A stretch of 64,000 nt of DNA from NCBI GenBank assembly GCA_025980765.1, contig JAICXB010000002.1, positions 120,758 through 184,757 of the forward strand. The letters are read 5' to 3'. Position numbers and translations under genes: made by a program. This stretch comes from Terriglobales bacterium (GTDB taxonomy: Bacteria > Acidobacteriota > Terriglobia > Terriglobales > Acidobacteriaceae). Below the pieces are notes generated by a model. It was not told the DNA's origin and did not search any database. It was given only the letters and a program-made list of their open reading frames with translations. Positions 15,707 through 63,855 of the stretch are shown here, piece by piece; positions within the stretch are counted from its first letter, which is position 1; each line of letters opens with the position of its first letter.

Positions 15707-15801
15707 GAGGCTTGGCCCGACTTCACTCTACCATCGGATTCGCATACCTAATGGCCAGACATTTCTGAAGTTTCCATAAGCCAGGACAACGTATGCTACG
15801 A

Positions 15802-16012
15802 GTCCCGCCTACCGGCGGGACGTGCGCCAGTAGCCCAGCACAACGTGCTGGGTACACGGATTTATCACGCTACGAGTCCCGCCCACCGGCGGGACGGCTG
15901 AGATTTGGATCTCAATCGTCCGGCTGCAGCCGGACTCTTGCAAAAGTATCTGATCGTTATCCCACCACTTGGTGGTGGGCTACTCTCGACCGTGCCGCCG
16001 AGGCGGCGGCAC
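15802..16012. repeat. Array of six perfect REP-like hairpins
   Basis: gtcccgcctaccggcgggac (15802), cccagcacaacgtgctggg (15834), gtcccgcccaccggcgggac (15876), gtccggctgcagccggac (15918), cccaccacttggtggtggg (15961), gtgccgccgaggcggcggcac (15992). Confidence 0.9.
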
Positions 16013-16132: not shown

Positions 16133-17707
16133 GTGCTGAGAATGTGCTTCGGCATGCTTTTGACTTTTGTTTCTTTTTTCATCACAGCGTCACCGGCGCA
16201 TGCCGATTCTGGCAACACTCCTGGTTGCCAGAAGGTTACCGCGCGGCAATGCCTGGACCTCGCCCTGAATGCTATGGGCGGCCGAGAGCGCCTGCAACAG
16301 ATCAACAATGCGCGTCTGCAAACGATTGGTCATACGCTTCTGATGGAGCAGTCATACCGGCAGGAACCGTTCATCACATCATACGAAACCGCAACCACGA
16401 CTCTCGATTTCGCAAATCAGCAACTTTTCAAAGAGGCAATTTTGACCTGGCCTGAATCTGATCCGAACCAGTCAGAGTTAAAGAGCACTACGGTGGTTGG
16501 GCCCGAGGGTGGGGTCACGCGGACCAAGGACGGCGACCGGCCCTGCGGCCTGGTTTGCGTGGATGAAGCGGAGGAACAGCTGGCTTTGGGACCGGCGCGC
16601 ATTCTGCTCACGGCTTCGAAAGCTCAGGACCTGCAGTTTTCCAGGCCGGAGATCCTGCGCTCCACATCGCATGCGGTCCTCAGCTTCACTTGGAACAAAG
16701 TGCCCGTGCGCGTCTTGCTGAATGGATTCAATCACCTGCCGGACGCTGTCGAGACCACGCAGGAATTTCACGATTTCTGGTACTTCTGGGGCGACGTGCG
16801 ACAGCGCACCTACTTCGACAACTGGCAGATTTTTCAGGGAATCAGCTACCCCACGAATCTAGTGCAGGAGCGCAACGGCTCCGTTTGGCGCTCGACGCAG
16901 GCGCTGAAGGTTGAGTTCAACGTCCCCGTCGAACCCAGCGCATTTCAGATGGACACTGCGATGGCACAGCGCAGCCCGGCATCAAAAGGATGGGGCGGCC
17001 GGGCCTTCAACCCTAATAAGGACATCGCACTTGCGCCAGGGATCGACCTCTTTCCCGGAGCGTGGAATTCCACGATCGTAAAACTTTCGGACGGAGTTGT
17101 AATCCTGGAAGCGCCGATTTCAGGGTTGTACACTCAGGGCGTGGTCGAGGAGGCGAAAAAGCGCTATCCGGGAGCGCGGATCGAAGCAGTGCTATCGACA
17201 TCGGATTCCTGGCCGCACACCGGCGGAGTCCGCTTTGCCGTTGCGAGCGGTCTTCCTGTTTACATCCTCGATCTGAATCGCCCGTTGCTCGACCGGATTG
17301 TCGCCGCACCGCACACGATCGATCCCGATGCTCTTGCGCAACCGGGAGCGCACAAGGCTCCGATCTGGAAGATCGTTGCCGGCAAAGAGCAAGTCGGTAC
17401 AGGTCCGAATCGGATGGAGTTGTATCCGATTCGAGGAGCGTCGACCGAACGGCAGTACATGGTCTACTTCCCCGAACATCATCTGCTTTATGCCAGCGAT
17501 ACCCTGGCGCTCAACGACGACGGCTCGCTTTACGATCCGGAATTGATGTTTGAAGTCGCCCAGGCGGTAAAGCGCGAGAATCTCAATGTCAACACCGTGT
17601 TTGCCATGCATCAGACTCCCGTGGCATGGGAAAAAGTGGTGGCTTTGATTGAAAAGGCCCGGTCTGGTGAGGCAAACATGAAGGCACCAGCCAGTGAATT
17701 AAGGTAG
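16133..17707 (+). CDS. Secreted metallo-beta-lactamase-fold-like protein lacking the canonical HxHxDH motif
   Basis: Signal peptide; C-terminal half reads like an MBL fold (LFPGAWNSTIVKLSDGVVILEAPISGLYTQGVVEEAKKRYPGARIEAVLSTSDSWPHTGGVRFAVASGLPVY...HHLLYASDTLALND). Confidence 0.6.
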   Translation: MLRMCFGMLLTFVSFFITASPAHADSGNTPGCQKVTARQCLDLALNAMGGRERLQQINNARLQTIGHTLLMEQSYRQEPFITSYETATTTLDFANQQLFKEAILTWPESDPNQSELKSTTVVGPEGGVTRTKDGDRPCGLVCVDEAEEQLALGPARILLTASKAQDLQFSRPEILRSTSHAVLSFTWNKVPVRVLLNGFNHLPDAVETTQEFHDFWYFWGDVRQRTYFDNWQIFQGISYPTNLVQERNGSVWRSTQALKVEFNVPVEPSAFQMDTAMAQRSPASKGWGGRAFNPNKDIALAPGIDLFPGAWNSTIVKLSDGVVILEAPISGLYTQGVVEEAKKRYPGARIEAVLSTSDSWPHTGGVRFAVASGLPVYILDLNRPLLDRIVAAPHTIDPDALAQPGAHKAPIWKIVAGKEQVGTGPNRMELYPIRGASTERQYMVYFPEHHLLYASDTLALNDDGSLYDPELMFEVAQAVKRENLNVNTVFAMHQTPVAWEKVVALIEKARSGEANMKAPASELR

Positions 17708-17725: not shown

Positions 17726-17926
17726 ATGAAGAAAGAACGGCATCATTTCAACGTCGTGTTACGCCCCGAGCCCAAGGGAGGATTTACAGCTACTGTGCCA
17801 GCTCTGCCTGGCTGCGTAACATACGGACGCAGCGTGGCCGAAGCGAAGAGCATGGTGAAGGACGCGATATCCGGCTACATCGAGAGTCTCAAAAAGCACA
17901 ACGAGCCTATCCCCGGAGCGCCGTAG
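17726..17926 (+). CDS. HicB-like antitoxin domain protein (orphan)
   Basis: 66 aa: FNVVLRPEPKGGFTATVPALPGCVTYGRSVAEAKSMVKDAISGYIESLKKHNEPIP; no HicA ORF adjacent. Confidence 0.85.
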   Translation: MKKERHHFNVVLRPEPKGGFTATVPALPGCVTYGRSVAEAKSMVKDAISGYIESLKKHNEPIPGAP

Positions 17927-18062
17927 GCGCGACATTCGTTAGCCCGGCTTGATAACCTGGAACTCTTCATAATGATTCCCGAAAAAATCCGAACTGAGCA
18001 ATGTGGGCGCTGGTTTCTGTGGCATTCTGCAGTTCTGCAGGAAACGACAGTTCGTCGAAAAA

Positions 18063-41296: not shown

Positions 41297-41424
41297 TTCC
41301 ACAGGCATTGAAATGGCGCTTGGAAGTGAGGCGAGTAGCTTATCGTTTCAAACTGACCCGCTAACGATTTTGACTTTTCTTACGCGCGGCGCATACATTG
41401 AACTCTGCTTTTACAACCTAAGCG

Positions 41425-41612
41425 ATTTGCGCGGTCCCGCCTTTTTCGCGGGACCAGGGAAGCGGGTGAGAATCCCGCGCTGCCGCGCAACTGTAAGCGA
41501 GCCAAGGATGCCCAGAACCACTGTCCCATTTGGGGCGGGAAGGGGGCGATCCCGAGCGCCGGTGAAATGTCCGGCGTCCACTCGTAAGCCAGGAGACCGG
41601 CGCAGACCGTAC
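41425..41612 (+). promoter_or_regulatory. Cobalamin (AdoCbl) riboswitch
   Basis: gggaagcgggtgagaatcccgcgctgccgcgcaactgtaagcgag ... cactcgtaagccaggagaccggc (B12-box), directly upstream of btuB-like gene. Confidence 0.95.
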
Positions 41613-41647
41613 AACCCAATCCCACTCGCGTGCTCAGGAGGATTGCC

Positions 41648-63127: not shown

Positions 63128-63160
63128 GAAGCTTCCAGCCGCCAGCTGCCGCGTCTTGGA

Positions 63161-63827
63161 GGCGCAGAGCGCCGCCAGAATTTAGCCCACGGCGCCAGCC
63201 GTGGGTACAATGTCGATCCAAATATTCTGAGTCCCGGAGGGACGGCACACATGAGTCATTCGTATTCACAGATTCTGGTTCATGGCACCTTCAGCACGGA
63301 AGAGCGCCGCAATCTCATCCGCGAAGACATGCAACCGCGCCTGTGGGCGTATATGAGCGCAACAGCGAAGAAAGACGGGGTACGCATGATTTCAGTAGGC
63401 GGAATCGCAAATCACGCGCATGTCCTGTTTGCTCTGCCGACAACGTTAACCCTAGCCACCGTTATGCGCAACCTCAAGTCAAACTCGTCGCGCTGGATGC
63501 GCGAGAACGGCTGCAAATTTTCCTGGCAGACCGGATACGGCGCATTCAGCATCGGGTATTCGCAGTTGAATGCCGTGGTCAGTTACATTCAGCGGCAGCC
63601 CGAACACCACAAACGCAGGAGCTTCGAGCAGGAGTTTGTTGCCCTGCTCAAGAAATATGGTGTGGACTACGATCCAAAATACGTTCTCGGATGAGTGTCG
63701 CCAGTTCGTTACCCATGGCTCACGCCATGGACAAAATTGTGACGTCCCTCCGGGACTCAGGATCTTGGAGGGGGACACTAAACCCATGGCTCGCGCCATG
63801 GGCTAAATTCTGGCGGCGCTCCGCGCC
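63161..63827 (+). mobile_element. REP-associated transposase element with inverted hairpin ends
   Basis: Left ggcgcagagcgccgccagaatttagcccacggcgccagccgtgggtac; right end reverse complement ggcgcggagcgccgccagaatttagcccatggcgcgagccatgggttt; transposase between. Confidence 0.85.
63251..63694 (+). CDS. Y1/HUH transposase (IS200-like, REP-associated tyrosine transposase type)
   Basis: HUH motif GGIANHAHVLFALP and catalytic-Tyr region SYIQRQPEHHKRRSFEQEF. Confidence 0.9.
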   Translation: MSHSYSQILVHGTFSTEERRNLIREDMQPRLWAYMSATAKKDGVRMISVGGIANHAHVLFALPTTLTLATVMRNLKSNSSRWMRENGCKFSWQTGYGAFSIGYSQLNAVVSYIQRQPEHHKRRSFEQEFVALLKKYGVDYDPKYVLG

Positions 63828-63855
63828 TCGATGATCCCCGGCCTTACGGAAGCGG

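Follow-up and report, generated by a model that had tools for sequence, protein, structure and literature searches.

The tnpA gene at positions 63251–63694 of the window (the whole 64,000-nt stretch of DNA that was analysed) belongs, with a probability that we put at roughly three in four, to a small autonomous element of the subclass 1.2 Y1 HUH type, whose ends are inverted composite hairpin units subject to REP-like processing of single-stranded DNA, the Rfam family RF01687 being made up of such units. This reading joins two orphans: a transposase subclass with no known DNA substrate and an RNA family with no function. What is new is the combination, in a REP-like element, of composite hairpins and another transposase subclass, together with the re-reading of an RNA family. 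If true, RF01687 matches now taken as regulatory RNAs would be mobile-element ends or debris, and the family should be re-typed.

The element and its transposase

The ORF on the forward strand encodes a 147-aa Y1_Tnp protein (PF01797, 8e-22). A repeat search placed around it an outer inverted pair (63154–63214 and 63774–63834, 61 nt, 85% complementary) and an inner one (63221–63249 and 63738–63766, 29 nt, 90%). Both searches bear out the initial annotation, which had described a Y1/HUH ORF flanked by inverted ends of about 48 bp.

Read toward the gene, the unit consists of hairpin B (5-bp stem, 3-nt loop), a linker of 12 nt with TTAG at its end, hairpin A (8-bp stem, 4-nt loop) and, after about 20–25 nt, hairpin B2. 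On the left, the outer unit occupies 63160–63205 in the B-to-A orientation on the forward strand, where RF01687 reads on the reverse strand, with hairpin B at 63161–63173, the linker at 63174–63185 and hairpin A at 63186–63205. Hairpin B2 (GTCCC-GGA-GGGAC) follows at 63231–63243 on the forward strand, lies in the inner inverted repeat and gives a half match of 18.4 bits to RF01687, to the second hairpin of the family only. The opposite flank of tnpA is the mirror image: on the reverse strand, the right outer unit (63783–63828) comprises hairpin A at 63783–63802, the foot CTAA (the reverse complement of TTAG) at 63803–63806 and hairpin B at 63815–63827. This flank also holds a second full copy, an extra inner unit of 46 nt (63712–63757, reverse strand), with hairpin A at 63712–63731, a foot, and hairpin B at 63744–63756.

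In an Rfam search of the whole window, the right end, the left end and the inner right unit scored 51.9, 50.2 and 38.9 bits with RF01687 (cut-off 37), both outer ends at E<=2.3e-08. With R1, a covariance model that we built from 34 ungapped units, the same three scored 58.6, 58.0 and 52.9 bits. As single strands, the left and right ends, the two that were folded, exceeded their shuffles in stability by 3.6–4.8 SD.

An inner hairpin pair had also been described, with a ggag loop on the left and a right member at 63754. The left hairpin is where it had been placed, with a 3-nt GGA loop, and the right one exists at 63744–63756; rather than forming a second pair they are parts of the composite unit, the right one being hairpin B of a third, complete unit that had been missed. 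The presumed recognition unit is a composite of two or three hairpins and no single REP. The c/g versus t/a paired change between the ends (CCCACGGC..GCCGTGGG at the left, CCCATGGC..GCCATGGG at the right) is exact; it is one paired change between two ends, and the weight of the covariation argument lies with the family alignment given below.

The motifs of tnpA are HUH (H55-A-H57), WQ at 92–93 and Y112---Q116--H119-H120. H55, H57, W92, Q93, Y112, Q116, H119 and H120 are invariant across 10 aligned family proteins. The middle HUH residue is alanine, not isoleucine or valine, and the preceding one asparagine, not aspartate. A Foldseek search with the AlphaFold model (pLDDT 88.8) matched complexes of the ISDra2 and IS608 transposases with their end DNA and of TnpA_REP with a REP hairpin. 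The initial annotation is supported in seeing here a tyrosine-HUH transposase whose element ends in REP-like hairpins.

The Y---Q--HH signature, the HUH and WQ motifs and the length agree with TnpA-Y1 subclass 1.2, described as proteins of about 148 aa with few, diverse copies per genome (PMC6006769). The same holds for copy number: of five subclass 1.2 loci in the genome of origin, two are broken, and the four besides tnpA are 38–45% identical to it. The subclass has been reported mostly from Cyanobacteria and Bacteroidetes; its genes are described as low-copy, having "no" REP and in general lacking the terminal structures of IS200 (Quentin et al. 2018, PMC6006769). We find it also in the phylum of the window, probably Acidobacteriota judging by gene content and RF01687, and in that of a Verrucomicrobiales genome; in contrast to the published description, it regularly has composite hairpin flanks. 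These flanks revise the description of the subclass, not the assignment of the protein.

Association of the units with subclass 1.2 genes and their possible movement

The further hairpins anticipated by the initial annotation are found genome-wide (31 RF01687 matches, 9 above cut-off), solitary copies among them. In this genome, four of the five tnpA loci have an RF01687 match within 400 bp, where chance would give 0.95% for each (p=4e-8); at the fifth, missed by the model, hairpin inverted repeats were seen by eye. In a set of 149 genomes from the phylum, 30 have subclass 1.2 and 31 have RF01687: 22 have both, 8 only the gene, 9 only RF01687 and 110 neither (odds ratio 33.6, p=5.9e-13). Counted by family rather than over the full tree, so that shared descent may contribute, the association gives p=1.9e-6. 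Class 2 transposases, present in 84 of these genomes, are weakly linked to RF01687, with an odds ratio of 3.3; where class 2 is lacking, RF01687 occurs in 5/5 genomes with subclass 1.2 versus 2/60 without it. In Bacteroidota, the phylum of a Hymenobacter locus, the protein is found in 19/24 genomes with RF01687 versus 95/198 overall (p=0.002).

The R1 model was then scored on 81 independent subclass 1.2 loci, all outside its training set. Units adjoin 45 of them, on both flanks in 27, and the matches are in mirror orientation in 75 of 88 cases (75:13). Their density is 1.81 per kb within 300 bp of subclass 1.2 genes versus 0.055 beyond, and only 1/30 class 2 RAYT loci has a unit at the same level. 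A strict descriptor made up of hairpin B, TAG and hairpin A was found in 84/156 flanks on the gene-facing strand and in 13 on the other strand, compared with 2.3 in shuffles and 4/322 distant pieces. By eye, loci missed by R1 often have the same architecture with different loop lengths. A descriptor without the tag, requiring two B-type hairpins, showed enrichment in Bacteroidota (odds ratio 32), in Verrucomicrobiota (18) and also at class 2 loci (9.7), which have paired hairpins of their own. It therefore supports generality, not specificity, and was dropped as a specific test; specificity is held only by the RF01687-type model.

Units also occur without a gene. At 15801–16012 of the window lies a gene-less inverted pair, MITE- or REPIN-like, of the form B-GTAG-A-B2 ... 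A'-CTAC-B' (R1 32.3 bits at 15801–15852, forward strand, and 18.2 bits at 15961–15997, reverse strand), whose left half folds as DNA with a z-score of -5.0. A truncated unit at 17917–17961 (forward strand, R1 27.8 bits) retains hairpin B, a TTAG foot and half of hairpin A. Gene-less inverted pairs recur in genomes G140 and G074, resembling elements that have lost the gene and kept both ends.

Related species differ at such sites. A complete tnpA element of G043 is missing from G068 and G030, and G121 has seven R1 units in 20 kb that are missing from the syntenic stretches of G073, with edges that are not clean. Exact boundaries could not be taken from these comparisons, as the intergenic DNA of G068 and G030 is unrelated to that of G043 and G121 against G073 offers one informative site. 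At that site, the clearest filled/empty pair (L211:16520-16800 versus the empty L224 of G073), the unit-carrying insertion lies between direct repeats of 31 bp that match the terminal part of the adjacent coding region, unlike the duplication-free insertion of IS200/IS605. Sequence resembling CACAGAGGACACAGAGG / CTCTGTGCCCTCTGTGGTTAAAT was seen near units of the same locus (L211:16570-16600 and 17360-17385), one copy also being present at the unit-less G073 site.

An alternative view is that the units are moved mainly by other machinery, either a carrier DDE-type MITE or a class 2 TnpA_REP, the subclass 1.2 gene being a domesticated relic or a passenger. Of 20 G121 copies sampled, the majority are indeed carried within an element of ~175 nt that has 17-bp terminal inverted repeats and apparent 4-bp target duplications (B-to-A orientation in L227-L229, L232-L238, L240, L243 and L244; terminal repeats GAGTCTGTGTGAGAACT or GTGTCTGTGTCATAGCT), and several copies of this element are inserted within the B-type hairpin GTCCCGTAGGGAC (GTCCCGTAG/GGAC). 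The G121 copy number, initially considered as proof of movement, was dropped on this ground, because copies inside another TIR element are alone no proof of movement by the tnpA enzyme. RF01687-rich genomes devoid of the gene exist as well: G036, G062, G113 and G140 hold 10–36 units each without an intact subclass 1.2 gene, and in the nearly complete genome of G036, with at least 21 units, neither subclass 1.2 nor class 2 transposases were found. Against this view, the link between RF01687 and class 2 is weak and runs largely via subclass 1.2, and many families have the bare B-A-B2 unit, not the MITE, beside tnpA. We consider it unlikely. Given the unit-rich genomes without the gene, the TIR element and the 31-bp repeat, we infer, rather than observe, movement by the subclass 1.2 transposase. 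As a separate observation, L210:1-2322 of G123 contains eight RF01687 units in 2.3 kb, including two near-identical stretches of more than 100 nt.

DNA ends or a small RNA

RF01687, the "Acido-Lenti-1 RNA", is typed as sRNA in Rfam and was rated a probable RNA by Weinberg et al. 2010 (PMC2864571); a 2026 paper proposed its matches in Tannerella as possible protease regulators (PMC13298647). Our units have the family's pair of hairpins, its linker and its covariation, and three copies in the window exceed the cut-off. The family is filed as a small RNA of unassigned role; in our reading it is DNA and covers two thirds of a mobile unit with three hairpins. In the open-access literature that we searched, we found no paper joining RF01687 to a transposase.

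A true small RNA, acting as an RNA-level regulator or terminator and adjoining the transposase by chance, would agree with the Rfam type and the published rating, and a terminator role is possible for GC-rich hairpins. Several results contradict it: the units are carried on both gene flanks in mirror orientation, they form gene-less inverted pairs, and their stems change in pairs and do not favour G-T. Among the 34 ungapped units, picked like those below by a structure-aware score, 99.1% of stem cells are paired versus 74.6% in shuffles. The covariation test called for by the initial annotation gave 101 two-sided changes, compared with 28 in shuffled controls (0/500) and at most 8 in slid ones, and just 4 one-sided changes. 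In 28 further units outside the model, G-T was counted 4 times and A-C 6 times among 364 stem cells. In an RNA stem, G-U is expected to be tolerated far more than A-C, and the finding that G-T is no commoner than A-C thus fits a DNA hairpin. We rate the RNA explanation as improbable, a shade below the other-machinery one. Since subclass 1.2 genes are flanked by RF01687-like hairpins across three phyla, Acido-Lenti-1 most probably represents a mobile element's DNA end.

Outside the stems, near-invariance is seen in the AG that precedes hairpin A and in the final A of this hairpin's loop. Recognition by hairpin shape plus flanking bases, as the initial annotation proposed, would be compatible with such conserved unpaired bases. 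The foot reads TTAG in the element; some relatives, as well as the gene-less pair at 15801–16012, have GTAG, and ATAG, AAAG and TTAG are the commonest in units outside the model. The foot is more variable outside Acidobacteriota and not a strict GTAG. In the model for TnpA_REP and IS608, the final AG of GTAG contributes to the choice of a CT cleavage site (PMC8266576), which makes a guide role for NTAG a reasonable inference by analogy. By eye, no firm conserved CT dinucleotide adjoins the unit.

Across its copies the unit runs B, a linker with NTAG at its end, A and, some 20 nt further on, B2; it occurs also alone or as gene-less inverted pairs, and the Acido-Lenti-1 RNA of Rfam corresponds to such units cut down to A plus B. 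In the most likely mechanism, once the DNA is single-stranded, hairpin A would fold and be bound by the transposase together with its NTAG foot, placed like GTAG in REPs and the guide sequences of IS608. Tyr112 would then cut and the ends would be rejoined, moving the gene, while gene-less copies would be moved in trans by the same enzyme. As hairpin, foot and enzyme are all defined, a direct bench test is possible. A wider proposal, to which we give somewhat less than even odds, is that subclass 1.2 constitutes a separate REP-like system, in which a dimer would read A, B and NTAG, stems would drift by paired change, and RF01687 in several phyla would be wholly its DNA substrate.

Relation to known systems

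IS200/IS605 elements of subclass 1.1 (IS608, ISDra2) have the same fold, end hairpins and guide position at the 5' foot. The ends described here differ as mirror-image multi-hairpin units, and copies within one genome are diverse, not near-identical. With a score of 53.8 bits on the NCBIfam equivalog transpos_IS200 (cut-off 55) and diverse copies, assignment to subclass 1.1 was rejected.

Class 2 REPtrons (Nunvar 2010, PMC2817692; PMC8266576) likewise pair an HUH-Y1 enzyme with inverted hairpins and an NTAG foot, and REPINs, as inverted gene-less copies, are similar to the gene-less units. They differ in transposase class, and the hairpins here are composite, with a foot not strictly GTAG. The canonical REP-associated transposase of the initial annotation, a class 2 RAYT, is very improbable: the enzyme is HUH-Y1, the hairpins are repeated and some copies have a GTAG foot, but REP_Tyr_transpos gives 27.9 bits (cut-off 80), the motif is Y---Q--HH where Y---NP is expected, the element carries TTAG in place of the class 2 foot GT[AG]G, and the composite unit is missing from class 2 loci (1/30 with a match).

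TIRtrons/TIRYT (Di Nocera et al. 2013, PMC3733652) also have long inverted repeats around a Y1 gene and are known in Acidobacteria; unlike tnpA, TIRYTs mostly belong to class 2.1 and bear an additional C-terminal domain. CGTC REPs (PMC3733652) have no assigned transposase and longer stems, and identity of the units with them was discarded, as stems and tails are unlike the published description.

Two minor observations concern the surroundings. Group II introns have been noted near RF01687 family members; beside 20 solitary-unit loci, none was found among matches at E<=0.001, giving no support to such an association of the units. Elsewhere in the window, a cobalamin riboswitch aptamer lies at 41412–41619 (RF00174, 91 bits).
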